From Leuctra nigra (taxonomy: Eukaryota; Arthropoda; Insecta; Plecoptera; Leuctridae), in NCBI GenBank assembly GCA_934045905.1, contig OW203766.1, forward strand, positions 21,942,309 through 22,006,308: a DNA stretch of 64,000 bases. The letters are read 5' to 3'. The notes below the pieces were generated by a model that saw only the letters and a program-made list of their open reading frames with translations, did not search any database and had not been told where the DNA came from. Within the stretch, counting starts at the first letter, position 1. Each line of letters begins with the position of its first letter. This document shows, one piece after another, positions 7,497 through 60,212 of the stretch. The position numbers and the translations under genes are program-made.

Positions 7497-8816
7497 GGCT
7501 CATTCCATTCTACTTCACCCAAAGTCGTTGCGCCTAGAATTTTGATTTTTTTTATATTTTGCACAGTTGTTCCTACATATAAGCTGATATCAAATCTCTA
7601 GTTTCAGTTTGTTTCAAGTCGGCGTACTCAAATTACGTGTAATTAAAGATGGCGCGGACGGGAAAATCGGTGTTTTTAAGCTTCCAGGAGAAATGCTGCC
7701 ATTTCCATACTATTCAAGTTAACAGAACGATCTTTGCGGCGTTTTGTTCATAAAAGATCGGTCTATAATTATGTTTCTTACAATTTTGCTGTATATGGAA
7801 CCCTTCATAATGTAATTTGCCCTCAAACTTTGACTAAAATTCTTAAATTTTTCCAATATTTGAGGCATGATTATGAATAGAAGGGAGTGATGGTTCAAAC
7901 ACCCAATTTTATTTTAGTTTCACCTTATATGTTAGAATAGATTTTCACACTTCAATGTTAGTTTTTATTAATTGTTTTTTACCAAAAAAAAGTCAAAACC
8001 CGAAAAAGTACCATTTTTGGTCCCATTTTCCTCAGGTGGGGGACCAGATAAAAATTTGCGCTCAACGGCAAAATAACCAGCATTACTTGATGTATAATTG
8101 CTGCAAGTTTGGACTTGTTTTTTTAACGGGTGTGGAAATGCATTTTCACATGCATTTCCTGGTGCGAAAATGCATTTCCACACCCGTTAAAAAAACAAGT
8201 CCAAACTTGCAGCAATTATACACCAAGTAATGCTGGTTATTTTGCCGTTGAGCGCAAATTTTTATCTGGTCCCCCACCTGAGGAAAATGGGACCAAAAAT
8301 GGTACTTTTTCGGGTTTTGACTTTTTTTTGGTAAAAAACAATTAATAAAAACTAACATTGAAGTGTGAAAATCTATTCTAACATATAAGGTGAAACTAAA
8401 ATAAAATTGGGTGTTTGAACCATCACTCCCTTCTATTCATAATCATGCCTCAAATATTGGAAAAATTTAAGAATTTTAGTCAAAGTTTGAGGGCAAATTA
8501 CATTATGAAGGGTTCCATATACAGCAAAATTGTAAGAAACATAATTATAGACCGATCTTTTATGAACAAAACGCCGCAAAGATCGTTCTGTTAACTTGAA
8601 TAGTATGGAAATGGCAGCATTTCTCCTGGAAGCTTAAAAACACCGATTTTCCCGTCCGCGCCATCTTTAATTACACGTAATTTGAGTACGCCGACTTGAA
8701 ACGAACTGAAACTAGAGATTTGATATCAGCTTATATGTAGGAACAACTGTGCAAAATATAAAAAAAATCAAAATTCTAGGCGCAACGACTTTGGGTGAAG
8801 TAGAATGGAATGAGCC
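7497..8816. mobile_element. 1320-bp foldback transposon (copy 1)
   Basis: The element is a giant palindrome: two arms of about 640 bp are inverted copies that meet near 8156, with ends GGCTCATTCC and GGAATGAGCC. The flanks carry the 4-bp duplication ATTA. Open frames of up to 91 codons occur symmetrically on both strands and are by-products of the palindrome. A second copy of the same length lies at 58893-60212. A 4-bp duplication fits Sola, Academ or Chapaev-type elements; the family cannot be settled without a transposase. Confidence 0.9.
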
Positions 8817-9108
8817 ATTAGCAAGATTGTAAAAAATTGAAATTAAAAAAACATTTCAAAATAATTTCTAATTGAAGAAAACCATGTAGAATTGAATGTA
8901 ATTTCTACGTGTGTGCATACTGCATATTCTTCATGTTTGGATAATTGAATCTAGATTACAGCATCCAGCATTACAGCAAGCAACTACCAAAGTCCGAATG
9001 AGATGATTGAGTATCACTTTGCGTTTTTATGTTAATATTAAATTTAGAAGTAAGAAATTGTAGTTGGTCCTCTCGTATCAACAATTTGGTAGAGTTGTTA
9101 TGTACTAG

Positions 9109-22387: not shown

Positions 22388-23407
22388 GGTTATTCTAAAT
22401 TTCCTTGTCGTCGCCGAAGATAGGACGATAATTTTGTCCGCCGTAAGCGCCTCGATCGTTTTGAGGGCAAGTGTTTCATCTTTATACTGAAACTGTTTGG
22501 ACTAAGAGTTTGAGTTCTTTGGTTTCCACACAGACAGCTGGCTGGCTCAAAACATCTCAAAACATAACCTAAAAATCGTGTTTATAAAATAATAAAATGG
22601 TTCTAAATTGTATTGTAAAAAATTGTCGTTCAAGAATAATTCCAGGCCAAGTAAATAATCATTTAAAGTTCCACTGTTACCCTAAAATCATTGAAATTAA
22701 AAATATGTGGCAATTAAGTCTTAAGATTGGCAAAATGTTACCTTCACAAAGGGTATGTAGCCTGCATTTCTTGCCAACTGACTACACCAACACGTCAATG
22801 GGTAGGTATTTAGATATTTAGATATTTAGATATTTTTTATTAGGCATCTTACAGTTGTTTATGCACGGTGGTAAGGAATCCTACTACATGCTAATGTGCA
22901 CTACATAATGGCACTTTGTTAATTATATTACAGTCGACATAATAATAATTCTTGGTAATGATAATTTCTTAATGACTAACAATTCCATATCCAAGAATAG
23001 AATATGACAGTAATAATAAAAGTATTAATAATTCAGTAAAACATTTGACAGAGCAACAATAAACCTATGTGGATATGCCACTCTATACAACAGTCTAGAA
23101 TTCAGTTCATGAATACTTTCCATAATCAAGAGTCAAAGAACAGGAACATACATCTTAATAAGTTATAATAATAATATAATAGTTATAATAATAATACCTT
23201 AATACCTACAAGTCATTTCAGCAAGTCAATAGTCAGGTCAATAAAAATTATAATAATATAAATTAATATCGCATTAATAAATCAATTCAGCAATCATCAG
23301 CAATATCATCAAGTAACATTTCTTATGTACGCAATAAATTTAAATTTAACTATTTACAATAATTTTACCATCATTCATACACAGATTAATACACAGATTT
23401 TCTACAT

Positions 23408-26329
23408 TCATTCATCAGTCTCTTCAGGAGGGCCGACCAGCATTCTGTGTATGGTGGCTCGGAATTCCTTGGTGGTCAGCCCTTTCGGAATCAGGCCGCA
23501 GTCCAGTTTGTTCCAGTCCCGAGCGGTGCGGGGAATGAAGGAATATTTACCGCAGTCTTTCTTCGTTCCCGGCTCGTGTAGGAGGCCACCTGTACCAGCT
23601 CTGCCCTCGTACCGTCGCGGGATGACCTGGCTGTTGATTTCCTGCCATCCCTGTACTCCCTCTCTTGCTCGGTACAGGTTACACAGGCGAGATTCAGTTC
23701 TTCTGAGCTCCAGCGAGTCCCATCCAAGCTCCTCCATCATATCGCTGGGGCTCTCCCACACCTTGCAGATCTCACCTTTCAAGTTCCTTTCTGTCCTCCA
23801 TTTCCTTGTCCTACCGGTCACTCTCCTGGCTGCTATTCTCTGTGTTTTTTCTAGCGCCCTCTTCTCACCCTCCTTATGGGGATCCCAGACCGCTCCTCCA
23901 TATTCCAGCAAGGGCCTGATGAGTGTTTTGTAGGCTTGGTTCTTTGTTTCAGATGATGTTCCGTGCAGGTTCCTCATGACGAAATTTGTGCATTTGATTC
24001 CTTTCGCAGAGACTCTACCGACTTGCTCTTTCCACTCCAATTTTCTATCTAGCCATACTCCCAGATATTTATAACCCTCGCTGCATGTAAGGGTATGGTT
24101 GCTTATCTCGTAATGAACTATTCTAACTTCTCGCTTTCTGGAGAAGGTAACAACTTCACATTTTTCTAGGTTTAGGCACATTTTATTCGCTGTCATCCAG
24201 TGTTGAATGACATGCAAGTCGTCCTGCAGCTGCTTTACACTGTCATCCCCTTTGATGTTTGCGTAGACCACGCAGTCATCTGCAAAGAGCCGACCTTTCG
24301 ATTTTATGTTCTTTGTCAGGTCGTTGATATATATCAGGAAGAGTTGCGGCCCGACTACGCTGCCTTGTGGAACCCCCGAGGTGACGCTCGCACTTTCTGA
24401 GAGTTGGTCAGCTATCTTGACCCTTTGGGTTCGTCCCGTGAGGAAATCCTGCACCGTTCTCACCACCGCTTCGTCCTCAATGAGCGCAGCAAGCTTGGCA
24501 ACGAGTATTCCATGGTCGACCTTATCGAATGCCTTTCGCATATCAAGAAAAATGGCATCAACCTCTTCATCAGCTTCAAGGGAGTTGGATAGATCTTGGA
24601 CTAATCCTGTCAGTTGGGTCTCGCAAGAGTGCCCAGCCCTGAAACCGTGCTGTATGTTGGTAATTACCTCTTCAGCGTTCAACACTTGCCAGATATACCT
24701 CACCAGGAGTTTCTCAAAAACTTTGCAGACTGCTGAGGTGAGGCTTATCGGTCGATAGTTGGTGAGCCGACATTTCTCGCCACCCTTGAAGACCGGAATT
24801 ACGATGGCCTCTTTCCAGAGAAGGGGTACCCTTCCGTCTCTCAGTATGCGCTTGAATAAGTATTCCAGGTAGATGGCAATGTCCAGGTCGCAGATTTTCA
24901 GCAGTGTGTTCGTTAGTCCGTCGCCTCCAGGCGCTTTACCGTTCTTTAGCTTCCTGATAACGTGTAGGATTCCCGTGGAATGCACTGCCATCGGAAACGA
25001 TCCTCTTCTGGAACAGCACAGCGCTGGGGTCGCAGATGGAGCTGAAGATGACGTGTTAAAGACCTTGGCGTAAAATGAATTTAGAGCGTTTGCCTTGTCC
25101 TTGCTGGAAGCTATCTCATTTCCATCGGTGCCAATTAACGTGGGAATAACTCGGTCTCCTCCCTTCTGCTGTCGGATGTGCTTGTACAGTCTGGCCCAGC
25201 CCCCTCCATCATCTTCCTTGCTGAACATACTCCTCATGTAAAGATCCTTTGCCTTGGACTTGGCCCTGTTGAGCTCAGCTGTGGTCGAATACAGTTTTGC
25301 CCTCTGCGATCTGTTTCGTCTGCTTACGTTGAAAAGGACCCTGGCTTTCCTCTTCAGCTTCTTAATACTGGTGTTATAGTAGGGAGGGTCTTGGTTCGCC
25401 TTCACTCTCTTCTGCGGGATGTGCTTTTTCATCGCTGCGGACACTATGCATAGCATAGACTCCCACATCGAATCAATGCTTGAGTGGTCAGCTAGGGCCC
25501 ATGTCTGAAAGCTCGTCCAGAGCTCTTCCCTCAGACCCCTTATGTCAGCCTTCTTGTAGCACCACAGTGTAGCTTCTTCCTCTGTACTCTTCTGGAGTTT
25601 GTTCGCCGTTAGGATGTCCACTACCACTGCTCTATGGTCACTGAGCTCCAGGTCCAGGACCTCACTCCTACAGATAAGGTTGTGGGGCTTCACCAGGACC
25701 ACGTCTAGAAGGTTGCTTCTGTCGGCTGTGATGGCTCTCGTACCCTCCGAGACAGCTTGTTCGTATCCCAAGTTCATGATCCTGGACACCATTTCTTGCT
25801 TGCCCGAGCCTGCGCCAGTTGTAACTCCCGGGATCCATTTCACATTTGGGAGATTCAGGTCTCCGGCAATGATGCTCCGGTGTCGCGCTCCAAAACAACT
25901 TAGTTTCGTCTCGAGCTGTCGAAGGAATTCAGTGGCACCTTCCCCACTTCTGTACACCCCGATGATGTCGGTGACTTCACCTGTGGGGCGGGTGGCTCGT
26001 ACACAGAGAATCTCCATTTCCTCGTCGGCCCACATTATCTTTCCAGCCTCGTCGGATGATGTGCCTATGAGTACACCTCCCCCATGTCGATCTTTGTCCC
26101 TCCTGTGGACGGCAAAGCCCGGCACACTGACCTCACTGTCTTTTATGTCAGCACACAGCCATGTTTCGACTACAACAAACACATTGGGGCTGCATGCCTC
26201 GACAATTGTTCTAAGCTTGTCGATTTTGTGGACAAGACTTCTTGCGTTGACAAGCAGGATGCGCAGTATGTGAGATGCAGATTTCGATGCTGGAGGGCAA
26301 ACATATAGCACGTTCCCCATGTCCTTCAT
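23408..26329 (-). CDS. LINE ORF2: APE endonuclease and reverse transcriptase
   Basis: Starts at the ATG 26329-26327 that overlaps the ORF1 stop as ATGA; the same frame is open to an in-frame ATG at 26389. From 26329 it has 973 residues. Numbered from 26389, the N-terminal third is an APE-type endonuclease (Glu75 in VVVETWL, GDLN near 176-179, LLDVV near 229, SDH near 252). Reverse transcriptase spans about 475-730 with RPISL, FRAGHSCETQL, catalytic Asp616 in FLDMRKAFDKVDH, SGVPQGSVVGP and LFADDCV (Asp704/705). A cysteine-poor C-terminal region follows. All core motifs are present, so it looks enzymatically competent. It would nick target DNA and copy the element RNA by target-primed reverse transcription. 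Confidence 0.95.
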   Translation of the reverse strand: MKDMGNVLYVCPPASKSASHILRILLVNARSLVHKIDKLRTIVEACSPNVFVVVETWLCADIKDSEVSVPGFAVHRRDKDRHGGGVLIGTSSDEAGKIMWADEEMEILCVRATRPTGEVTDIIGVYRSGEGATEFLRQLETKLSCFGARHRSIIAGDLNLPNVKWIPGVTTGAGSGKQEMVSRIMNLGYEQAVSEGTRAITADRSNLLDVVLVKPHNLICRSEVLDLELSDHRAVVVDILTANKLQKSTEEEATLWCYKKADIRGLREELWTSFQTWALADHSSIDSMWESMLCIVSAAMKKHIPQKRVKANQDPPYYNTSIKKLKRKARVLFNVSRRNRSQRAKLYSTTAELNRAKSKAKDLYMRSMFSKEDDGGGWARLYKHIRQQKGGDRVIPTLIGTDGNEIASSKDKANALNSFYAKVFNTSSSAPSATPALCCSRRGSFPMAVHSTGILHVIRKLKNGKAPGGDGLTNTLLKICDLDIAIYLEYLFKRILRDGRVPLLWKEAIVIPVFKGGEKCRLTNYRPISLTSAVCKVFEKLLVRYIWQVLNAEEVITNIQHGFRAGHSCETQLTGLVQDLSNSLEADEEVDAIFLDMRKAFDKVDHGILVAKLAALIEDEAVVRTVQDFLTGRTQRVKIADQLSESASVTSGVPQGSVVGPQLFLIYINDLTKNIKSKGRLFADDCVVYANIKGDDSVKQLQDDLHVIQHWMTANKMCLNLEKCEVVTFSRKREVRIVHYEISNHTLTCSEGYKYLGVWLDRKLEWKEQVGRVSAKGIKCTNFVMRNLHGTSSETKNQAYKTLIRPLLEYGGAVWDPHKEGEKRALEKTQRIAARRVTGRTRKWRTERNLKGEICKVWESPSDMMEELGWDSLELRRTESRLCNLYRAREGVQGWQEINSQVIPRRYEGRAGTGGLLHEPGTKKDCGKYSFIPRTARDWNKLDCGLIPKGLTTKEFRATIHRMLVGPPEETDE

Positions 26330-29022
26330 TCCCTCGTCCTCCACCAGTTTCCCGGGGAACTTGGTCTGTGGGTAAGCTGTTTGAAGCAAGTCAGCCAGTG
26401 GTGAACGCCTGCTTTGTTTAACTTAGAACGGTCCTGGCACCACATTTTTTCCTCCATAGAGAGGCCAGGGTCGAGGAATGAATGTCCCCTACTTCCTGAC
26501 TCATCCCTGATTATGAAGTTGGAAATATTACACGCTTCTCTACCTAGGTCAGCCCAAGGGGGAAGCCCACTGGTGCATATTACGGCACCTCTGAATTTGT
26601 CTTCTACCATCCTTAAAAGATTGCGGTAATCATTGGCCAGGTTGGCTTCATCTATTCCTGCCAGTAGGTCATGTGTTCCTACCTGTAGGAATACATTGTC
26701 ATACGTCTGCCTGGGATCCAGTCCATTCAAGTGGGCCGTGATTTCACTGGTACGGATCCCGGGAAGGATCCAGGCTTCGTCTTCTTTCCATTGGTAAAAG
26801 TTATGTGTGTTGGAAATCGTATCATCCGAGATAATTATACTACGTTTCCTGTTGAGGATAGGCTTTGGAGTTGGTACTGGTGGGGCCGGGGGACCATACG
26901 GAAGGAATGGATTGGTATTGGAGGATGCTACTGGCTGTTGTGAGTGTAGCTGTGGTACTTGTGAAGGACTGGTTTGCGCCTGCTGAATAATCGGCATCCT
27001 GGGGCCCCAGGGGGGCGTTAGTGAGGTGAGAAGGTCCTCTTGTTGGTGGTGGTGATTTTTTACCAGCGTGGGCCACATTTGTCTTGCCGCACTTGTCAGC
27101 TGAGGAATTGCTTGTGGCTGAGGGATGATGTTCCTAGATGGTATGAAGGTCCTTGTTTGTATAGGGGCTTCACCAGGGCGGGGTCCCTTTTGAGTTGACC
27201 GCTTCTTTCTCCCGGGCTTGATCAACTGCGCTGTTCCACTATGCTGAGGTTGGAAGAGTGGTGACGTTCTCAGTGTCGTCTGCTGCTGCGTTGACTTGGG
27301 CTTCGGTGAACCTGGTGGTTGCTCCAGTGGTAAAGGCAGTGTTGTATGCTGAAGGGGCTCGGGCAGGGGTGATGTTGTCGGCTGCCGCTGCTCAACTTCG
27401 GTGTTGCTTGCTAAGGAGTTGCCTACTTGAGAGGATCTGGCTGTCGGGATGTTGGTGACTTCCCCCACTGGGACGTTCTGCAGCTGCTCCTGTCCCTGCT
27501 CCCTGTCCTCACCAGGGGGACGTGTTGGTGGAACCTGCATCTCTGATTGTAGCTGCGCAGCATGAATCGAGGGTTGTGGTAACGGCATCGACTGCTCAAG
27601 TATCCTACGCAGGAGTGACTGATGGGTAGGGACTGGGACTGGCTGCAGCAAGGGCATTGGCTGCGGCTGTGAAGACTGTGTAGCGAGGGGTCTGGTCGAT
27701 GTATTTGTCTTCCTGTTCTTCCCTGCTGTCCAGTTGGTGCTCCTGCTTGTCTGCAGACCCAGTCCGGCTTCCATGCTGTAGACTTGTATGTTTATGTCCT
27801 CGTCTGCAAAAACCTCTTCGATTGTGCTTTTCACCAGCGGCCAGCCCATTCTGTCAAGCCCACATCCTATTAATGGTATGGCCAGTTTTCTGATGGATTT
27901 CTTCACGCACGTCTTTCTCAGGTTTTTTATTGCGTTAACAAAGTCGAAGAGATATGGTTTCTGATAGTATCGTGGTTTGGTGATCATATGGAGGATCGTC
28001 CTATTCTCAACCACTTGCACTGCTACCTCCCCCACAGTCTTCCGTTGTGTCCGCAGGGCATCAGTGCCTCCATATTTGGTTTTAATTACCGCAGCAATAC
28101 CCTCCGACATCTTAAAATCCGCCGATACACAGTGGGCCAGAGCGTAATCCTCATCTGAATCGAAAAGATTTCCAGCTATTTCCTCCAAATTCAGTTTACG
28201 CTTAGGGTCTGACTGCTTTATTGCATTGATGATTTTCGGGGTTGGTGATGCTATGTTCTTATGGGAAGGGGGTGTTGCAGTATCTTTAGGAGTATGTGAT
28301 GTTACTTGTGATGTATGTGGTGTTGCAGTATCTTTAGGAGTATGTGATGTTACTTTGATATCACTGGTGGTAGCGGTGAAGTGAACCAGAGCGTTACGTA
28401 GGTCCCTTACTTCCATGGCTAGGGCTTGGAGGGTGCTCTTTGTACGCTCTTGTTCCTGACTGTTATTTTGGAGGATTCCTTCAAACTTTGATAAAGAACT
28501 CATCCACATACCTGAGGCGCCAGTTTCTGTTTTCTTATCACGATGGAGAACACTACATGGTTTACACCACCACTGCGATTCTCTTATAGAGCTCAGCACG
28601 GCATACTGTTTGTCTGTGATGTTAATGCAGATTGAGTGAGCCCACTTGTTACAATAACCATCACAGCCTACTGCTTTATCGGATTCATTGACTTCTGTTT
28701 TACAAACAAGGCAATATGTAGACTGAGCGGAATTTGTATCTACATCCTTGGAAACTACTGTAGGTGCGCCTATTGCATCAGTATTGATCTGTTCTGCAGT
28801 ACTCTTCAGTGTCCTCCTAACAGCACCTCTACCATTCCCATTCCTAGGGTCTATGGTGTTTAGTTGTGGCTTGTTACCAACTATTTCTACTACTGGTTCT
28901 TCATTGGTCTTAGCTTCATTGTGATCGGCGTGTTTAACCCCACTTTCACTTTCCGTCACACGAGATTCTAAACAGTCATTCGTACTCTGCTGTGTGTTAT
29001 CTAATTCTACATTAGAATACAT
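26326..29022 (-). CDS. LINE ORF1: PHD finger, TARG1-like macrodomain, SGNH-like domain
   Basis: 898 residues from ATG 29022. Domains in order: PHD-type zinc finger 104-156 (CLVC, CDGYCNKWAHSIC, WWCKPC); short helical or coiled segment about 175-215; duplicated SHTPKDTATP linker; a macrodomain about 280-417 closely resembling human OARD1/TARG1 (LAHCVSADFKMSEGIAA, MITKPRYYQKPY, IPLIGCGLDRMGW); Pro/Gln-rich region 420-725; SGNH-hydrolase-like region about 727-878 (VGTHDL, with the GDS serine block changed to SDDT). TARG1 Lys84 and Asp125 correspond to Lys349 and Asp390 here, so ADP-ribosyl-ester hydrolysis is plausible. PHD and esterase modules are known in CR1/L2 ORF1 proteins; the macrodomain is unusual to my knowledge. 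Likely an RNA-binding or particle protein; its location is inferred, not shown. Confidence 0.9.
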   Translation of the reverse strand: MYSNVELDNTQQSTNDCLESRVTESESGVKHADHNEAKTNEEPVVEIVGNKPQLNTIDPRNGNGRGAVRRTLKSTAEQINTDAIGAPTVVSKDVDTNSAQSTYCLVCKTEVNESDKAVGCDGYCNKWAHSICINITDKQYAVLSSIRESQWWCKPCSVLHRDKKTETGASGMWMSSLSKFEGILQNNSQEQERTKSTLQALAMEVRDLRNALVHFTATTSDIKVTSHTPKDTATPHTSQVTSHTPKDTATPPSHKNIASPTPKIINAIKQSDPKRKLNLEEIAGNLFDSDEDYALAHCVSADFKMSEGIAAVIKTKYGGTDALRTQRKTVGEVAVQVVENRTILHMITKPRYYQKPYLFDFVNAIKNLRKTCVKKSIRKLAIPLIGCGLDRMGWPLVKSTIEEVFADEDINIQVYSMEAGLGLQTSRSTNWTAGKNRKTNTSTRPLATQSSQPQPMPLLQPVPVPTHQSLLRRILEQSMPLPQPSIHAAQLQSEMQVPPTRPPGEDREQGQEQLQNVPVGEVTNIPTARSSQVGNSLASNTEVEQRQPTTSPLPEPLQHTTLPLPLEQPPGSPKPKSTQQQTTLRTSPLFQPQHSGTAQLIKPGRKKRSTQKGPRPGEAPIQTRTFIPSRNIIPQPQAIPQLTSAARQMWPTLVKNHHHQQEDLLTSLTPPWGPRMPIIQQAQTSPSQVPQLHSQQPVASSNTNPFLPYGPPAPPVPTPKPILNRKRSIIISDDTISNTHNFYQWKEDEAWILPGIRTSEITAHLNGLDPRQTYDNVFLQVGTHDLLAGIDEANLANDYRNLLRMVEDKFRGAVICTSGLPPWADLGREACNISNFIIRDESGSRGHSFLDPGLSMEEKMWCQDRSKLNKAGVHHWLTCFKQLTHRPSSPGNWWRTRE

Positions 29023-29137: not shown

Positions 29138-29206
29138 CATTTTGCACCCATTTTCATTTTGCACCCATTTTCATTTTGCACCCATTTTCATTTTGCACCC
29201 ATTTTC
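29138..29206 (-). repeat. four 18-bp tandem repeats upstream of LINE ORF1
   Basis: The unit TTTTGCACCCATTTTCAT (plus-strand reading) is repeated about four times without change, about 115 bp upstream of the ORF1 ATG. It may be the 5' UTR/promoter of the LINE or flanking intron sequence. Confidence 0.7.
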
Positions 29207-29210
29207 TTTT

Positions 29211-30206
29211 TTTCGTCCTACTAAATCGGATAGACCGTACTACTTTCTTGACAAAAAAAATATAATAGGTGTACCTACTGTCTACAAATTACAGCACCCT
29301 TGAAAAACAAGTTCGGAATATTAAGTGTAGAATATTAGGTACTAGGTAATCCTACTAGTACGTAGGTACTATTACCTACCTTGTAAGTATGAAGCTGTGG
29401 TATGAAGTAATAAATCATTGTGGGTATATAAAAGGTTGCTCAATTCTCGATTAATTACTGTATGTTGCTCAAGGTCGACACAACATTACCTATTTACGAT
29501 CACAGATACAACAATATTGTTACTTCCAAGCCAAGTAGGTACCTACTCATTTACTGTCACCAGTAGTAAATGGAGTGATAGTTTATTGATTAATTTTTCA
29601 TTCTGAATGTCTCGTGAACTACAGAACTATCTAGTTTGGCACGCTACACTCGAACCAATTAAAACGGTATTTGAACTTAAATGGATTGGTTGCTTGTCAG
29701 GTTCCACAACAATCAATCCTTGTTATTATCAATGAAATCAGATCTAACCTTTGCCTACTAGTTGGGATGATGCGTAAGCACAGACTGCCATATTTTTTTT
29801 TTGGCGAATCTATTTCTTTTAAAGACCGTTTTATTATTTGTCGAGTGTACCTACCTATTCGAGTGCTGACAGTGATACTCATCTTTAGGTAACTAGTAGA
29901 TCTAACTTATTTTCTAACTGCTGAAATTGTTGACTGCCAGGACTTCTTTCAGATACCTACCTAGTGTTCAATCCGATCAAAATAAAAACTATAGGTACAT
30001 CAATTTACATAGAAACTTGTTTACAGTGAGTTTTACGTGATTTATTGAGTTACTGATTACAAAAGCAGTCATAGTAGATTACAATTACATACATTACAAT
30101 TTACAATTATTAGGTACGTACACCATAAAAGCCGACAATCTGTCCTTAAGCTCTGAATCTGTCCATCTGAATCCATCCCTTCCACATCACAAATCCTACC
30201 TTTCAG
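29211..30206 (+). other. remaining intron of the transposase gene
   Basis: AT-rich sequence between the LINE and the acceptor at 30206. No other element was recognised. Confidence 0.5.
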
Positions 30207-32092
30207 GAAAATGGAGATCCTTGAAAAAAGATGCCATTCCTTCACAACATTTACCAGTTGGTGACAAGCTGCCAGATCCCCAGTTGCATCTTGGTGCACC
30301 GTGTCAGCCGGCTGGAGAACACAATGAAGGTGCTACTACGAGTTCATTGTGCCAAGAAAATTTAGATCCTGATTTATCCTTGTCCAATTCAGAGCAAGAG
30401 GACCTGCGTGTAACACAACACGTCTTCGAACTCTTGTCCAATTCAGAGCAAGAGGACCTGAATATTTCCCAACAACTATTAGAATGTGAAATACAAGTAA
30501 TTAATTCATCAAGTGTAGAAGAGAGTGACAACTTGGCTACAAATGATCTACATTCATCAAGTACCGTTTCTTCTCAAACCTTTCTTACGAACCACATTGA
30601 TCAATTTATTACTTTTCAAAACTTGTCAGAGAAAGAAGTGCAGTATTTTGCTGGATTAAGCAGCCAACGTTTTGACTGTTTGTATAATTTTTTGCTTGCA
30701 ACCAAACCAGCAATACCATGTTCTACTTGCCCATTCAAAGATCAACTTCTACTTACACTTATCAAGTACAAGCACAATTTAGAGTATACTATGCTAGCCT
30801 TTCTCTTCCGTACACCTCGTAGATATGTATCAAATATTTTTTCATTCTGGACAAAACTCATCTATAGTGCCTTAAAATCTATCAACTTTTGGTCTCTTGG
30901 CAACCAAGATAAAGACAAATATCGTGCAATCATTGACTGCACAGAAATACCTACCTGTTCAAAAAAGCGAGAACCCGACATACCATCAACTCACATACTC
31001 ACAGTACAAGAACAGACCAACATTTAAAAGCCTAGTCGCAATAGATGAATCCGGAAAAATGATTTTTTGTTCAGACTTGTTTGGCGGTTCAACAAGTGAC
31101 CGCCAAATTGTGATCGCAAGTAATTTTGTTGCTTTGCCGGAAGAAGGTTCTACAATACTTGCTGATAGAGGATTCGAAATATCAGACCTCTTGGAACAGA
31201 GGAGAGTAGGGTTAAACATACCTCCGTTTCTCAGAGGCAAGGCACAGTTAAGCGAGAATGAAGTGATGGAAACAAGAAAGATCGCCAATCGGAGGATCCA
31301 CGTCGAAAGGTTAATTGGCTTAGCAAAGGTTAACAAAATCATGACCGATATAATGCCCACACACTTGTGGCCACTGGCAAATAAAATAAATTATAATTGC
31401 ACGATGCTGTGCAATTTAAAACCTCCGATCGTAAAATCATTTCCTATCAAATATCAAAGGAAGTGCTGGGACTCGTATGTTGAAATGTGCAACAGCAAGT
31501 GAATTGTACAGGTAGTACCTAATTGAACTTGAACTTGAATTGAAAGAATAGTGTAGGTACCGTAATATTGTATCAAATGTGGACAATTATATTTGGTGTT
31601 AAAAGGGCAAGGATGACCCTGAAAACTACAATTCTTACTTTCTTACCTAGCTTATAGAACAAAATATTCAAAAAAAATTACTCGCCAATGTATTTTGTAG
31701 ATGGCACAATATAGTAAATTGACCAACGACAGATACACGCTTTGTAACAAAAGTTTCAGCTGCACCCAAAGGTAAACATAGTAGATAATATTTCCTAAAT
31801 ATCGTTATAACTTTTGAAACATTCAAAGTAGGATAAATGCGAAAATTATTGGGTAGGTACATAGCTTAGCTAATTTTTTATTTGATATTAGCAATACACA
31901 CCAACTTATAAATCAATAGGTTGTGCCCATCACGTCAAAGGAATACCTCTATTGGTATATTCTATTCTATTAGAATGTCTATATAATTTTTTAAATTTTT
32001 CATAATTTGAATGATTCATTAGAAATTACGACAATATTTAAGAAATAGTATCTAATGTTTAGCTTCGAATGGAGCCATCTCTTATTGCTGGA

Positions 32093-34056
32093 CTACGACC
32101 AAAGGTATTTCATACAAATGGGGGCAAATACTTTTTTATAATATTGATTAATGTAACCAAGTGATTCCACTACAAAATTTTGATCATATGAAATTAATTC
32201 TACAAATAATCCCTTGGTCGTCCAGACAATAAAGTCACATTTGTGAACTTTTGTTACATGCATTTGTAACTGTATCTGCATATAATATTTGTGATTTTTC
32301 ATGAGGGACATATTCTTGATGTAGGTAGCACTGGTAGGTGATTGAAATCGTACACTGTACGGGCACTTTACTTCAACAAGTAGAGTGCGCTCCTTGGTGA
32401 TTCCATCGGGAGATGCTGCCAAGTAATTGTCAAAAGTGTCAATGAAAATACCACACTTGTCGATTTTCTCGTTAATGAGGTCTTCATAAGCTTTTATTGC
32501 TCGACTCTCATTTTGCTTTCCCCAAATGATGGATTTGGCCTTGAGAACGGGCTGTGGATGGACTTGCCGAAGTGCAGGACCAGTTGCCCAGTTCTGTGCC
32601 CGGGCTGTCCGCACCACATCAGCCGCCATGGAACCAGTGATCCTAGTCTGTCGAAGCTCTTTCCAAAGCTGGCAATCAGATTGCTTCCTAGTTTTTACTT
32701 CGTAGATCTTGATCTCTGTGTTACTGACTAAATTGATGCGATCGAGATTGAGGACCGCCAGTGAGTCTTTCAGGTAGGCACCATGATCATGTAAATATCC
32801 ATGGATGTCGACTGTCCGGTTCTCCAACACAGCGGTAGAGCAGCGCTCATTGATGATCCGGTTGCAAAACTCTGCTGTACGATCTTGCTCGGGGACAGAC
32901 GTCGGCTCAACTCCCAGCATTTCATCAATCGTCACCTTTTCAAGTTTTCTTCCACTCGATGGAGGCTTGTGCCAGACTTGCAGCTTGCTGGTGACAGCAA
33001 CATTCTCTAAACTTTCACCTTACGAAAAAGAAAAATTATTAGATTAAACAAGAGATTAATTGTTTAATTGTCACAGGTAGGTAGGTATTGAAATTTAATG
33101 TTCACATTTGATGAAATCTCTGTCATTTAGTTTAGGCTAAGAAGCTAAAGCTAAAAAAAATTCAAATACTATAGAAAATCATTTAAATTTAGTTTCTTCG
33201 AACATTATGAAATTCACAAACCTGTTATCGAGAAGTGCTCGATCAAATGTGCCAGAGCTGACACATGCTTGCATGCTGCGGAGTTGCCCTGGCCAGCAGG
33301 GCATGCACAATTGGCTTGTGCAATGCAAGGTTCTGTCCCAAGTTGAATGTGTAAATTTACTTTGTAGTCCACTGATGTTTTAGTTTGGGCCGAGCACAGA
33401 CATTTGAAAAAGTAATCATTGTGAAATTTAGAATAAACAACATTCTTGACAAACTTGTTCATGCACAGAGCTCGGCCTTTTTTTTGTCCGGCAACAGCAC
33501 TTCGCTCTTCAAACCAGACATCTATCACACTTAGGGTAAATTCTTCTAAATCTCTCTTGTTTAGGTTGTCTGTAATTCCTTCAAATTGATCTTCGTTTGG
33601 GAATGGTGCACTGCTGTTTCCAGGAATTACTGTTGTCGTAAACAACTTTTTGTCTAGTTGATTTTCATCCCATATTTTCAACCTATGACATTAAAAATAA
33701 TTGTCTGTTTTGGATGATCATTAAACAATGTAGCTTACCTTAATACCTAATGATATTTAGGTACTAAAAGAAACTACCTACCCACTAGAATCTATGGCAC
33801 AATCAAGTTCAAAATTTCATAAAGCATCAAATGTAGGTAGGTACCTAGGTAGGTATTAATTTTTCAAAAGGCATAGTCTTGCTTGTTATTACAAAAGTAT
33901 GTTTTGAGAGTTGAGATATGAATTAAATAGCACATTGTGCCAAGTTTCTTACCTCTCTTGTAATGTTGCTTTTGATCCACTTAATTTTGCACCATATTCT
34001 CTTAATTTAACTTTTAAATCTGCAACTGTAGTTTTATTTTCACATTTATCCACCAT
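32093..34056 (-). CDS. SAP-SWIM-YqaJ nuclease protein of the transposon
   Basis: Three exons join in phase: 34056-33953, 33682-33222 and 33018-32093, giving 496 residues. Exon 1 encodes a SAP-type DNA-binding helix-turn-helix (TVADLKVKLREYG, LSGSKATLQERL across the join). Exon 2 contains a SWIM zinc finger, CAC then CKH (about Cys160, Cys162, Cys172, His174). Exon 3 is a YqaJ-type nuclease of the lambda-exonuclease fold: WKELRQTRITGS near 307, Glu359 in WGKQNE, Asp393 in AASPDG, Glu404 and Lys406 in LVEVKCP, then YYMQIQLQM. All YqaJ core residues appear intact. It converges with the transposase gene (590 bp between stops). A second YqaJ-encoding gene is characteristic of ISL2EU elements as I recall; its role in transposition is not established here, and processing DNA ends is an inference. 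Confidence 0.88.
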
Positions 34057-47525: not shown

Positions 47526-50500
47526 TTAGTATTAGCTTTCTTTGCATTTTTTGCATCAGCTGCCACTTAATCACCAGCTGCATTGTTTATAGTTATATAA
47601 ACTGAATGTAATATTTATTCATATTTCCCAAATTTCAAAAATCCCAACCAATTTCATTGTTAGTAATTTTATCAGAATGCTGGTGAGTTGAGGATGGATA
47701 ATTAATTGATGGGGAGGTGGGTGGATTGATGGAGGGGATGCAGGCAAGATATACCTTGTGTTCAACCTTCCATTGTATGGACGTTGTGTTTCTCTCCCCA
47801 ATGCAACGGATAGGGCGGTAGACTCAATGCAAACAATTTCAAAGCATTCCCCCCCCCCCAAAAAAATTTTTTTTTTTTTTTTTTTTTTTTTTAGTTATTT
47901 ATTACCCGGGTAATTAAAGCGGGTACCCGGGTACAAATCATTACCCGAATCCGACCTCTAGAATCCAGAGCTATCCAGATAATTTCTGAATTGGTCTATT
48001 CACGTCATTGAATTTATGCACGAAGAAAAGGTGAGATGAGTAAAATTAAATTCAAATAGTTTATGAACTGTAACAATTTGCATTATTTCTTCTTTGGCTT
48101 CTTTGTCACACAGATTTCTATCTAGAACACTACACTGGAGGAACGAAATGTTGGCGGGAAATGTCACATTAGCTCAGCGAGAGAGGTTCGGATACTTCAG
48201 TAGTTTAAAGTTCGGTTCGCGAACATCTAAAGCCGATTCGGTTTTCGAACCGGTTCGCCCAACTCTACTTCAGATTGAAGTACAAAGTATAAATTAGTTA
48301 TAGGTACCTAACTGTATACTATGAAAACCAAACTCAAAATAGTGCAGTCAGTCAGTATTTAAATCCCCATTCTTGTGCGTCTAATCCTGGGTTATCTTGA
48401 CAGGCGCGTGATGGAGGTGATCTTGCATGATCGCAGGCTGCTGAAGAAACTGCGAGCCCCCGCCATCTCGCGCCTTCAGAAAATCCACAACATCAACGTC
48501 GCACTGACTGCGCTTAAGGAAGCTGGATTCGTCGTTGAGGGCGGCATCGAAGCGAAGCATGTCAACGAAGGGCATCGGGAGAAGACTCTTTCCCTTCTCT
48601 GGCAGATCGTCTACAAGTTCCAAGCTCCTCGCTTCAGGGCGATGGCCGTCATCATTCAGCGATGGTGGCGGTCCAAGTACCTGGGCATTGTAATTCAGCG
48701 CAGGATCCAGGCGAGACAGCACATGCGCGAGACTCTCGCAGCACAGAAAATACAGGCAATCTATAAGGGATATCGAGCCAGACAGGAGTTTGTAGTTCTC
48801 AGAGAAAATGCTCGAGAAGAGTACCGTGTTCGATCAAGAGCTGCTGTGGTCCTTCAACAAACCTGGAGGAATTATGCAATGAAAAAGAGGGAGTACTTAA
48901 TCCAGAAGAACCTGGAGCAGAAGAAAAAGTCTCATGCAGCTCAAGTGATTCAGTCTTCATGGAGATTGTACTTGGAACGAAAGATGACAAAGGCAGAGTT
49001 GGCGATGAGAATAATTTCGAAGCGAGAAAGAGTATCTGCTACAAAAATCCAAGCATACTACCGCTGTTTCAGAGTCAGACAGAACTATATTCAAATGAAG
49101 ATGTCCGCTGTTAAAATTCAATCCTTTTATCGTGGCCTCAAAATACGAAAAGAATTCCTACAAAAAAAGAATTCAGCCATAACAATCCAGGCCTTGTATC
49201 GAGGCATCAAAGTACGAGAAGAATTCATACAAAAGAAAAATTCCGCCATCAAAATCCAGGCATTGTATAGAGGCATCAAAGTTCGAGAAGAATTCCTACA
49301 GAAGAAGAATTCCACCATTAAAATCCAGGCTTTGTACCGAGGCTTCAAAGTACGAGAACAATTACAAAAGAAGAAGATTTCCGCCATTAAAATCCAGGCA
49401 TTGTATCGATGTTGCAAAACTCGTGAAGAATTTCTTCAAAAGAAGCAGTCTGCCATCAAGATCCAAGCATTGTACCGTGGATACAAAGCCCGTGAAGAAT
49501 TCCTACAAATGAAGAACTCGGCCATTAAAATCCAATCATTGTACCGTGGTTACAAAACCCGCGTAGAATTTCTAGAAAAGAAGAACTCTGCCATCAAGAT
49601 CCAAGCATTGTACCGTGGTTATAAAGCCAGAGTAGAATTCCTACAAACGAAGAACTCTGCCATTAAAATCCAAGCATTGTACCGTGGTTACAAAGCCCGT
49701 GATGAATTCCTAGAAAAGAAGAACTCTGCCATCAAGATCCAAGCATTGTACCGTGGTTACAAAGCCCGTGATGAATTCCTAGAAAAGAAGAACTCTGCCA
49801 TCAAGATCCAAGCATTGTACCGTGGTTACAAAGCCAGAGTAGAATTTATGCAAAAGAAGCACTCGGCCATCAAGATCCAAGCATTGTACCGGGGTTACAA
49901 AGCCCGCAAAGAATTCCTAGAAAAGAAGAACTCTGCCATCAAGATCCAAGCATTGTACCGTGGTTACAAAGCCCGTGAAGAATTCCTAGAAAAGAAGCTT
50001 TCTGCCATCAAGATCCAAGCATTGTACCGGGGTTACAAAGCCCGCAAAGAATTCCTAGAAAAGAAAAACTCTGCCATCAAGATCCAAGCATTGTACCGTG
50101 GTTACAAAGCCAGAGTAGAATTTCTGCAAAAGAAGCACTCGGCCATTAAGATCCAATCATTGTACCGTGGTTACAAAGCCCGTGATGAATTACTACAAAA
50201 GAAGATCTCTGCCATCAAGATCCAAGCATTGTACCGTGGTTACAAAGTCCGTGAAGAATTCCTACAAAAGAAGAACTCTGCCATCAAGATCCAAGCATTG
50301 TACCGTGGTTACAAAGCCCGTGAAGAATTACTACAAAAGAAGAACTCTGCCATCAAGATCCAAGCATTGTACCGTGGTTACAAAGCCAGAGTAGAATTTC
50401 TTCAAAAGAAGCACTCGGCCATTAAGATCCAATCATTGTACCGTGGTTACAAAGCCCGTGATGAATTACTACAAAAAAAGAACTCTGCCATCAAGATCCA

Positions 50501-53500
50501 AGCATTGTACCGTGGTTACAAAGTCCGTGAAGAATTACTACAAAAGAAGAACTCTGCCATCAAGATCCAAGCATTGTACCGTGGTTACAAAGCCAGAGTA
50601 GAATTTCTGCAAAAGAAGCACTCGGCCATTAAGATCCAATCATTGTACCGTGGTTACAAAGTCCGTGAAGAATTCCTACAAAAGAAGAACTCTGCCATCA
50701 AGATCCAATCATTGTACCGTGGTTACAAAGCCCGTGATGAATTACTACAAAAAAAGAACTCTGCCATCAAGATCCAAGCATTGTACCGTGGTTACAAAGT
50801 CCGTGAAGAATTACTACAAAAGAAGAACTCTGCCATCAAGATCCAAGCATTGTACCGTGGTTACCTAGCCAGAGTAGAATTTCTGCAAAAGAAGCACTCG
50901 GCCATTAAGATCCAATCATTGTACCGTGGTTACAAAGTCCGTGAAGAATTACTACAAAAGAAGAACTCTGCCATCAAGATCCAAGCATTGTACCGTGGTT
51001 ACAAAGCCAGAGTAGAATTTCTTCAAAAGAAGCACTCGGCCATTAAGATCCAATCATTGTACCGTGGTTACAAAGCCCGTGAAGAATTCCTAGAAAAGAA
51101 GATTTCTGCCATCAAGATCCAAGCATTGTACCGTGGTTACAAAGCCCGTGAAGAATTCCTAGAAAAGAATCTTTCTGCCATCAAGATCCAAGCATTGTAC
51201 CGGGGTTACAAAGCCCGCAAAGAATTCCTAGAAAAGAAGAACTCTGCCATCAAGATCCAAGCATTGTACCGTGGTTACAAAGCCCGCAAAGAATTCCTAG
51301 AAAAGAAGCACTCTGCCATAAAGATCCAAGCATTGTACCGTAGTTACAAAGCCCGTGAAGAATTCCTACAAATGAAGAACTCTGCCATCAAGATCCAAGC
51401 ATTGTACCGTGGTTACAAAGCCAGAGTAGATTTCCTACAAACGAAGAACTCTGCCATCAAGATCCAAGCATTGTACCGTGGTTACAAAACCCGTGAAGAA
51501 TTCCTACAAATGAAGAACTCTGCCATCAAGATCCAAGCTTTGTACCGGTGTTACAAAGCCCGTGAAGAATTCCTACAAATGAAGAACTCTGCCATCAAGA
51601 TCCAAGCGATGTACCGTGGTTGCAAAGCCCGTGAAGAATTCCTACAAATGAAGAACTCTGCCATCAAGATCCAAGCGATGTACCGTGGTTCCAAAGCCCG
51701 GGAAGAATTCCTACAAAAGAAGAACTCCGCCATCAAGATCCAAGCATTGTACCGTGGTTACAAAGCCCGGGAAGAATTCCTACAAAAGAAGAACTCTGCC
51801 ATCAAGATCCAAGCATTGTACCGTGGTTACAAAGCCCGCAATGAATTCCTACAAAAGAAGAACTCTGCCATCAAGATCCAAGCATTGTATCGTGGTTACA
51901 AAGCCAGAGAAGAACTTCTGCATAAGAAGAACTCTGCCATCAAGATCCAAGCATTGTACCGTGGTTACAAAGCCCGTGATGAATTCCTACAAAAGAAGAA
52001 CTCTGCCATTAAAATCCAATCATGGTATCGATGTTTAAAAATTCGTCCAAGTTTTGAATCTCAACAATTGGCTCAGGAATCGGATCAACAGTTCATTCTT
52101 CAGAAGAATGCAGCCATTAAGATTCAGGCATTGTATCGTGGATTTTCCGTGAGGAATCGTTTGTCCCGTGAAGCTGAGAAGCTATCTTGGCAAGCTAAGG
52201 TGGAAAAGACGTCTGCTACTAAAATTCAGGCTTGCTTCCGTGGCTACCTATGCCGGAAGCGTATGGAGGGATTAAGACGCACTGCTGCTGCGTTGACAAT
52301 CCAGAACTGGTATCGTCGGATTAATGCTCGTCTTCGCATCATACGTGCTGCTAAAAAGGAGGCCGTACGGCTTCGCTTGCTAAAATTGTTTGCCGAGCGA
52401 CAGAGGCAACGACGAGAGGATGCAGCTGTGTATATTCAAGCATATTTCCGAAACTATTTGGTTCGCCGAGAGGCGATAAGGGTGAAAATGTTGAAGGAGG
52501 AGGAAGAAAGACACAGACATTTTAAGGCTGTTATGTTGCAGGTAAGTTGGATTATAATTTCATTATCATTTCTTATTAAAAGATTCAAAATAGATATATA
52601 TTTCAACTTAAGAGCAGTTTCATAGTAAATAACAACTCATCTCATCTTTGTTCTTTTTTTCAAAGGATGAGGTCCTCATACAGTTTGTTTTTGGTTGGAA
52701 TAGGCCACCCACAATGGCAGATAGTGAATTTCATCTCAGTCTAGAGGATAAAACATCAGGAATCATTTGATTAAAAGTTTTTTAATAAAAGTTTGTGTAC
52801 AAGAAGTTGAATCAATCGGCCACGCCCACATCATATAATCTTCTAGCAACTTTTATGTATTGTTTCCTACAACTCTAATTTTATAAGCAACATCACATTT
52901 TGATTTAGTTCTAATCATAAATTGTGTGAGTTACAGGCTTGGTGGCGCGGAGTACTTCACCGCAAGAACCATTCCCAGCATCTTGTCGAGATGCACGTCC
53001 GCATCGTCCAAGTGAACCGAGAAGCCGTCCCATCCGAGACTCTTGGCCACCGATACACGAGCATCTTGGAGACCTTGCGCATGAGCACAGAGCTCGGTTG
53101 TATCATATCCGCACTCATTAATCTAGGTGCGTTTTCCACTGGCATTTGTTTTAATTAATGAGCTTGATGCAAGATTCATTTATTTGTATTGCTTCGCTTG
53201 TGCATATTTTACCTAGAAACTTTTGCCTACTTATAGGGGCCAAGTAACGTCTTTTTGTGGATGTAATTAGGACTTTTACACTATACAGGCTCTCTAGTAA
53301 CGCCTAAAGTAGACTTCTGTCTTCCTGAAGGACTCAACTTAATTTGCGTCACGTATTCATTTACAAAAATGAGTGTCACTGTCAACTACATCAAATATCT
53401 GTATAACTAGTACTATAGTACCTACAGGTGCTATAGTACCTACAGTTACAGACAGTCCATCATTATTCTTATGCCATTCGTTTCTGAAAATCATTACATA

Positions 53501-58281: not shown

Positions 58282-58892
58282 GTATGTATGCTGAGTTTCT
58301 AGTAATACATTTTATGAGTTGAAATTTTGAGGTTATGTTTGGGTCACTATTATTATCACGTTTTAATTGCCAAAAAGTATGATTTTAACATAAGTACATA
58401 ATTATAATAGAATAGGGGAATGATGGAGAGAAAACATACGCCCCTAAAAATTGTAGCATTTTTGCTATTATAGCCACAATTATCATTCAAATTACATATT
58501 TCGAGTGTTCCTGGCTTGTCAGCACCATCAAGCTAGTTGCTACACTTACGCACATGTTAAATACCAACTGCAAATAATAATAAAAAAATATTAAAATGGC
58601 TTCAGAAAGATGCCAAAACTTGGGACACGTTTTAATTACAGTTAAAACATAACATTTTATAAATATATGAATGTGAATTTGTTACATATGTCAAGATACA
58701 CTATTAATAAGCCTAATATTTATTTTTGGTACATTTAATTAATGTACTTTAAGATATATGGCAAAAGCAATGCTGGAAAACAGGGTGAGGGACAAGCTAG
58801 GGGAATGACTTTTGGGGGGTATTTTGGGCTGTAGCTCTTAGATGTGCATCATAATAACCTTACACTATGGCTGTAATTGTCAAGTAGCATCT

Positions 58893-60212
58893 GGCTCATT
58901 CCATTCTACTTCACCCAAAGTCGTTGCGCCTAGAATTTAGATTTTTTTTATATTTTGCACAGTTGTTCCTACATATAAGCTGATATCAAATCTCTAGTTT
59001 CAGTGCGATTCAAGTCAGCGTTCTCAAATTACGTGTAATTAAAGATGGCGCGGACGGGAAAATCGGTGTTTTTAAGCTTCCAGGAGAAATGCTGCCATTT
59101 CCATACTATTCAAGTTAACAGAACGATCTTTGCGGCGTTTTGTTCATAAAAGATCGGTCTATAATTATGTTTCTTACAATTTTGCTGTATATGGAACCCT
59201 TCATAATGTAATTTGCCCTCAAACTTTGACTAAAATTCTTAAATTTTTCCAATATTTGAGGCATGATTATGAATAGAAGGGAGTGATGGTTCAAACACCC
59301 AATTTTATTTTAGTTTCACCTTATATGTTAGAATAGATTTTCACACTTCATTGTTAGTTTTTATTAATTGTTTTTTACCAAAAAAAAGTCAAATTCCTAA
59401 AAAGTACCATTTTTGGTCCCATTTTCCTCAGGCGGGGGACCAGATAAAAATTTGCGCTCAACGGCAAAATAACCAGCATTACTTGATGTATAATTGCTGC
59501 AAGTTTGGACTTGTTTTTTTAACGGGTGTGGAAATGCATTTTCGCACCTGGAAATGCACGTGAAAATGCATTTCCACACCCGTTAAAAAAACAAGTCCAA
59601 ACTTGCAGAAATTATACATCAAGTAATGCTGGTTATTTTGCCGTTGAGCGCAAATTTTTATCTGGTCCCCCGCCTGAGGAAAATGGGACCAAAAAAGGTA
59701 CTTTTTAGGAATTAGACTTTTTTTTTGTAAAAAACAATTAATAAAAACTAACAATGAAGTGTGAAAATCTATTCTTACATATAAGGTGAAACTAAAATAA
59801 AATTGGGTGTTTGAACCATCACTCCCTTCTATTCATAATCATGCCTCAAATATTGGAAAAATGTAAGAATTTTAGTCAAAGTTTGAGGGCAAATTACATT
59901 ATGAAGGGTTCCATATACAGCAAAATTGTAAGAAACATAATTATAGACCGATCTTTTATGAACAAAACGCCGCAAAGATCGTTCTGTTAACTTGAATAGT
60001 ATGGAAATGGCAGCATTTCTCCTGGAAGCTTAAAAACACCGATTTTCCCGTCCGCGCCATCTTTAATTACACGTAATTTGAGTACGCCGACTTGAATCGC
60101 ACTGAAACTAGAGATTTGATATCAGCTTATATGTAGGAACAACTGTGCAAAATATAAAAAAAATCTAAATTCTAGGCGCAACGACTTTGGGTGAAGTAGA
60201 ATGGAATGAGCC
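58893..60212. mobile_element. 1320-bp foldback transposon (copy 2)
   Basis: Same length and nearly the same sequence as 7497-8816, with ends GGCTCATTCC / GGAATGAGCC and the 4-bp duplication ATCT. The arms differ from each other at only a few positions. The loop differs slightly from copy 1 around 59540-59565. Confidence 0.9.

Follow-up and report, generated by a model that had tools for sequence, protein, structure and literature searches.

A TARG1-type macrodomain in the ORF1 of a LINE and in further retroelement families of Leuctra nigra

Organization of the LINE and its surroundings

The DNA analysed here (hereafter, the window) is a stretch of 64,000 nucleotides from Leuctra nigra (GenBank assembly GCA_934045905.1, contig OW203766.1, positions 21,942,309 to 22,006,308), which carries a LINE with two ORFs on its reverse strand (Table 1). 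ORF1 runs through 898 amino acids without interruption to a TGA stop at positions 26326–26328, in agreement with the intact frame described in an earlier, sequence-only reading of this DNA. The ATG of ORF2, at position 26329, falls within this stop, and ORF2 may be translated by coupled re-initiation at the ATGA overlap. The Pfam matches of ORF2 included RVT_1 (E = 5.9e-33) and Exo_endo_phos_2 (E = 1.6e-9) and no integrase, and its nearest solved relative by sequence was LINE-1 ORF2p (E = 1.4e-24 over 37–784). As judged from this combination of an AP-type endonuclease with a reverse transcriptase (RT) and no integrase match, the element is an AP-endonuclease LINE. An 8-base 3′ repeat is a criterion for the CR1/L2 lineage. 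The presence of such a repeat, together with the content of ORF1, hints that the window LINE belongs to this lineage (Jockey superfamily), since CR1 and L2 elements have been described with PHD fingers and esterases in their ORF1s (PMC4120745).

Several other features were observed in the window. An open frame of 1416 amino acids on the forward strand (48375–52625) contained 44 IQ-motif matches with a period of 69 bases (23 residues) in at least 42 copies, and we take it to be, probably, the ASPM (abnormal spindle) gene. At 30221–31502, also on the forward strand, HTH_Tnp_4 and DDE_Tnp_4 pieces lay in two overlapping frames of a Harbinger-type transposase that is probably broken. On the reverse strand, a frame resembling YqaJ/viral alkaline exonucleases adjoined a SWIM zinc finger frame (32093–33681). 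Two copies of 1321 bases (7497–8817 and 58892–60212) were 98% complementary, each being a hairpin with arms of about 650 bases, and by this structure they are a palindromic foldback element.

Table 1. Features of the LINE in the window
Feature	Position	Strand	Evidence
LINE ORF1, 898 aa: PHD, macrodomain, Pro/Gln-rich linker, degenerate SGNH	26326..29022	-	
LINE ORF2, 973 aa counted from ATG: AP-type endonuclease and RT	23408..26329	-	
ATGA overlap of ORF2 start and ORF1 stop	26326..26329	-	
PHD finger, residues 104–156, complete C4HC3 ligands	28555..28713	-	Pfam E = 1.9e-6; 2vpd E = 2.3e-8
TARG1/OARD1-like macrodomain, residues 278–416	27775..28191	-	
Lys349 codon, equivalent of TARG1 Lys84	27976..27978	-	Alignment
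Asp390 codon, equivalent of TARG1 Asp125	27853..27855	-	Alignment
Pro/Gln/Thr/Ser-rich linker, about residues 445–720	26863..27690	-	Composition of residues 431–722
SGNH (LINE-type esterase) domain, residues 728–883	26374..26841	-	Pfam E = 0.0016, under cut-off; relative P0004
8-base repeat, 4.1 copies, probable 3′ end of element	22803..22835	-	
17-base repeat, 4.4 copies, upstream of ORF1, perhaps 5′ UTR	29138..29211	-	

Domains of the ORF1 protein

The five best solved-structure matches of ORF1 were all human C6orf130/OARD1/TARG1, with a best stretch of residues 278–416 and E-values of 2e-28 to 3.8e-28, which bears out the TARG1/OARD1-like macrodomain proposed in the sequence-only reading. 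This match was strong although the Pfam Macro score of ORF1 alone was under threshold (19.3 bits vs a cut-off of 22); the domain is, on these scores, understated by the general Macro profile. The window domain and TARG1, the terminal ADP-ribose protein glycohydrolase, were identical at 56 of 139 positions in a gap-free alignment (40%), and they share the fold and the IGCGLD loop. Among solved structures, TARG1 was closest by both sequence and fold, and DarG was next by fold; the macrodomain of DarG, the DNA ADP-ribosyl glycohydrolase of DarTG, is a bacterial antitoxin, and TARG1 is clearly closer to the window domain. An alphavirus-type viral macrodomain was rejected as the closest kin, the listed alphavirus chains having 13–17% identity to the window domain (E about 1e-7) vs 39–40% for TARG1.

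Both catalytic residues named in the sequence-only reading were recovered: Lys349 and Asp390 aligned with positions 83 and 124 of chain 2l8r_A, which were taken as human Lys84 and Asp125 with an offset of one residue. The window domain differs from TARG1 in being embedded in an 898-residue LINE ORF1 with PHD and SGNH parts and in its MGAGIA loop, which reads MSEGIA, so that Gly41 of TARG1 is replaced by Ser. The catalytic Lys of TARG1 is named Lys84 in PMC8501950.

The macrodomain had been described as linked to a PHD finger and an SGNH-like domain. The PHD finger stood, with all eight C4HC3 ligands present and the Pygopus PHD fingers as its nearest solved relatives by sequence; the SGNH part was also seen, in degenerate form and under the Pfam cut-off. 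It was more evident through the relative P0004, a protein of 626 amino acids with both domains: its macrodomain matched TARG1 at E = 4.9e-38, and its SGNH domain was closest, among solved structures, to 4c1b (E = 1.8e-9), the ORF1-encoded esterase of the zebrafish LINE ZfL2-1 (PMC3905857); P0004 was therefore classed as a LINE ORF1. In the alignment of the window SGNH domain to P0004, the catalytic Ser, Asn, and His were replaced by Asp734, His784, and Lys867, respectively, and Asp864 was retained. An active esterase in the window ORF1 was accordingly rejected: with these three residues replaced, the esterase is very probably dead, and the macrodomain pair is intact. The AlphaFold model of the SGNH part (two sequences) was poor (pLDDT 49.9) and was left out of the evidence.

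Copies and macrodomain families in the genome

The genome searched was the 536-Mb assembly of 144 contigs. With ORF1 as the query, at least 77 matches were found (51 of 1087 candidates scored). The family of the window element (family A) occupied eight places with the macrodomain, at 97–100% identity, and a ninth, partial place (residues 465–898). Four of the eight were full length without a stop (window included), two were full length with one stop, and two were incomplete or split. The four intact full-length copies were 0–3 residues apart, which fits recent movement; in terms of these sequences, the window element is an intact, recently active LINE.

With the macrodomain as the query, at least 150 matches were obtained (150 scored of 377 candidates; E = 2.4e-100 to 1.5e-24), of which 144 had no stop inside the match. 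We fetched 40 loci, and the 38 containing a macrodomain were sorted by identity and architecture into 17 families; in family F (two loci), the SGNH part alone was found. The eight copies of the window element and the 16 further families read in the same genome reject a chance fusion or a single copy, and uphold the expectation that other family members carry the domain.

The families differed in architecture. Families A–E encode PHD–macrodomain ORF1s, with SGNH also in A–C, and a relative of ORF2 lay near each. Families G and Q encode SAP–macrodomain ORF1s (with SGNH too in Q) and have an endonuclease frame downstream, as does family P. Families H, M, and N have the order macrodomain–SGNH; downstream of it, H has an endonuclease frame and N has one under the Pfam cut-off. 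Families O and R are of the PHD–macrodomain type, with the PHD finger slightly under the Pfam cut-off. Family I is a near relative of P (62% identity), and J is a further one. For families I, J, M, O, and R, phmmer (and Pfam for one frame of I) found no RT or endonuclease in the retrieved DNA, which in some cases ends inside the ORF; these families are counted as retroelements from their multiple copies (I, J, M, and O) and kinship, R through its kinship with O. Families K and L were assigned to Gypsy-type pol from the kinship of their RT and the order of their domains; their macrodomain lies upstream of the RT, in L behind a match to an aspartyl protease (E = 5.1e-5, under the cut-off). This site differs from the one between RNase H and integrase observed elsewhere.

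Relatives in other genomes

Searching protein sequences for relatives of the ORF1 macrodomain region gave 11 matches. These included the Gypsy pol proteins P0003 and P0007 (from the sawfly Athalia), the LINE-type P0004, the gag-like P0006, and gene-like macrodomain proteins from three thrips species and one cockroach. In P0013 from Planococcus, an RT lay far upstream of the macrodomain; P0012 is the same stretch without the RT and has the same domain, and P0009, which had no RT match, was placed with these two by resemblance. In the cockroach protein P0010, a second, degenerate macrodomain-like stretch followed the first (iE 1.1e-8), and a similar one was faintly visible in the Athalia pol P0007 (iE 0.052).

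A search from P0003 yielded 14 proteins including P0003 itself, among them the aphid proteins P0059 (Cinara cedri) and P0062 and P0071 (Uroleucon formosanum). Eight Gypsy proteins were given to Pfam, and six of them showed the order RNase H–macrodomain–integrase (P0003, P0059, P0060, P0064, P0069, and P0068, the macrodomain of P0068 being placed by alignment to the TARG1-type domain and not by Pfam); P0062 had no integrase match and P0007 no RNase H match. The macrodomain alone as the query retrieved 45 short proteins. The TARG1-type domain is thus found in the ORF1s of LINEs, downstream of a LINE RT, and in two positions within Gypsy-type pol. Among the IMG/VR viral contigs, the window macrodomain alone found no relative; with an alignment as the query, 131 of 133 pattern matches were confirmed as TARG1-like, and 80 (L001–L080) were retained.

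Catalytic residues, constraint, and phylogeny

Among the 21 rows classed as retroelement-borne (with the window counted, and with one domain common to P0012 and P0013), all had Lys84 and 20 had Asp125; the remaining row ended before Asp125. The Gypsy rows P0062 and P0065 kept the Asp within a broken IGCGLD loop. In the L. nigra genome, 13 of the 17 families kept both residues and four had lost one or both: in B a short deletion removed the Asp, in D neither residue remains, N carries Arg and Glu in their place, and in O the Lys is replaced by Arg. One representative per family was counted, and the copies of A–D that were read agreed with theirs. Lys84 and Asp125 were each kept in 14 of 17 families, against a column mean of 9.1, and 20 of the 139 columns were kept more often. 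These catalytic losses count against a simple reading in which all the domains are erasers. The state of the SGNH domain was independent of that of the macrodomain: families A, B, C, and F have a broken SGNH domain, H, N, and Q a complete one, and M one with its Asp replaced. Thus, N combines a macrodomain without the pair with a complete SGNH domain, A and C show the reverse, and H and Q have both complete.

Gly41 was replaced in 20 of the 21 retroelement-classed rows and in 16 of the 17 L. nigra families (family A being in both counts), and it was retained in all five genes and in 37 of the 45 short proteins. With relatedness taken into account, this contrast had median p-values of 0.25 and 0.5, the pairs being too few. 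The replacement hints that the substrate of the retroelement macrodomains could have changed.

Between families, pS was 0.70–0.85, near saturation, and pN was 0.24–0.38 in all seven pairs computed; dN/dS was 0.13, 0.14, and 0.25 in the three pairs with a computable dS. The low pN against a near-saturated pS means that the protein sequence of the macrodomain has been kept. Families B and D, both with catalytic losses, were constrained like the other pairs (pN 0.24, pS 0.76), suggesting either that hydrolysis is not the only reason for which the fold is retained or that the losses are young.

The first tree, of 67 rows and with an unsettled bootstrap, left out P0071, P0058, and P0043 as short or truncated and P0013 because its domain is that of P0012; its starred branches forced three changes for the three other LINE rows. 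AU tests did not reject one clade, either for the window with P0004 (p = 0.298) or for 18 retroelement rows vs five genes (p = 0.255). In the second tree, of the 17 L. nigra families with 8 of the 45 short rows and 5 of the 15 Gypsy rows, the 15 non-Gypsy families needed six changes, of which the starred branches forced two; three rows had long branches.

Discussion

LINE ORF1 types with a PHD finger or an esterase (CR1/L2) were reportedly described by Kapitonov and Jurka in 2003. The CR1/L2 types treated by Metcalfe and Casane (2014; PMC4120745) share with the window element the N-terminal PHD finger, the C-terminal LINE-type esterase, and the endonuclease/RT ORF2; that paper does not contain the word "macro" and gives esterase-type ORF1s for vertebrate subgroups only. 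Fish epsilon-like endogenous retroviruses carry macrodomain ORFs (Basta 2009, cited in PMC4977317) and so resemble the window LINE in having a macrodomain in a retroelement, but they are retroviruses of fish with an additional ORF. A macrodomain gene has also been reported in shrimp endogenous nimaviruses (PMC7016691). Insect LINEs with a captured SF1 helicase (PMC6338049) and an orchid Gypsy with an AlkB-like demethylase (PMC9289625) likewise hold a host or viral enzyme module in a retroelement, but these are other enzymes, not concerned with ADP-ribose. Our literature search, outside which lay preprints, most subscription papers, and Repbase, gave no LINE with a macrodomain among the matches listed. 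Within the reach of this search, the novelty lies in a TARG1-type domain that recurs as a module both in LINE ORF1s and, at two positions, in Gypsy-type pol.

The sequences establish the fold, the active-site residues, the presence across copies and families, and the constraint at the protein level; the ORF1 macrodomain, which is of the TARG1/DarG type, most likely works as an ADP-ribosyl hydrolase. Retrotransposition produces nicks, single-stranded DNA, and unligated ends. TARG1 and DarG are reported to take ADP-ribose off thymidine in DNA, and cells are not rescued by versions of them with the Lys mutated (PMC8501950); PARP1 is reported to mark the single-stranded DNA of telomere overhangs and of Okazaki fragments that are not ligated, and TARG1 to remove this mark (PMC11102865); and PARP1 and PARP2 are named among the factors necessary for L1 integration (PMC10201437). 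We favor, with a confidence just short of even, a role in which the macrodomain removes ADP-ribose from protein or nucleic acid, either at the target site or at the RNP. The ORF1 protein would travel with the element RNA to the target site and be positioned there by the PHD finger on chromatin, host PARPs would mark the nick and the cDNA, and Lys349 and Asp390 would strip mono-ADP-ribose from DNA (ends and single-stranded bases) or from acidic protein residues, which would unblock reverse transcription and the second-strand steps. A shared clearing step of this kind would explain how different retroelements, all of which produce nicks, single-stranded cDNA, and free ends, come to hold the domain at different sites of different proteins. 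On the other hand, PARP activity is reported to help L1, and an eraser could therefore also harm the element. A wider proposition, which we regard as possible but doubtful, is that ADP-ribose on retrotransposition intermediates is a general block, that insect LINEs and Gypsy elements repeatedly took the host TARG1 to lift it, and that the domain thereby became a regular component of ORF1 across many families of a single genome, some later giving way to forms that only bind.

After this clearing role, the next most likely reading, although a somewhat unlikely one, is that the domain is a reader of ADP-ribose, which with PHD or SAP would tether the RNP to PARP-marked DNA breaks or chromatin, much as chromodomains steer some Gypsy elements, hydrolysis being secondary or lost. 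The partners of the macrodomain are chromatin- or DNA-binding modules, PHD in A–E, O, and R and SAP in G and Q. The fold is retained without the full pair in B, D, N, and O, and the constraint on B and D weakens the eraser reading, as something besides hydrolysis may be kept. However, both residues are kept in most families, Lys84 would be needless for a pure reader, and TARG1-type domains are known mainly as hydrolases (PMC8501950). Removal of ADP-ribose set on the RNP or RNA by antiviral PARPs, as a cytoplasmic counter-defence of the kind conducted by viral macrodomains, comes third and is unlikely: alphavirus domains were among the structural matches and recurrence in different parasites would fit an arms race, but those listed were far more distant than TARG1 and DarG, and the PHD and SAP partners suggest the nucleus. 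Insects are not known to have the virus-directed PARP families of vertebrates, which also speaks against it. That TARG1 was taken from the host, in one event or several, and persists as a mere chance passenger seems highly improbable; it would accommodate the catalytic losses, but not the low pN, the scarcity of stops over at least 150 places, or the many families and architectures.

The occurrence of the domain in many families and in other insects suggests that removing or reading ADP-ribose helps retroelement copying. The functions of LINE ORF1s are poorly known, and PARPs have been reported in L1 integration without a clear target. The 17 families read in one genome, some of which have lost catalytic residues naturally, make it possible to test directly whether retrotransposition is limited or guided by ADP-ribose on DNA or protein.
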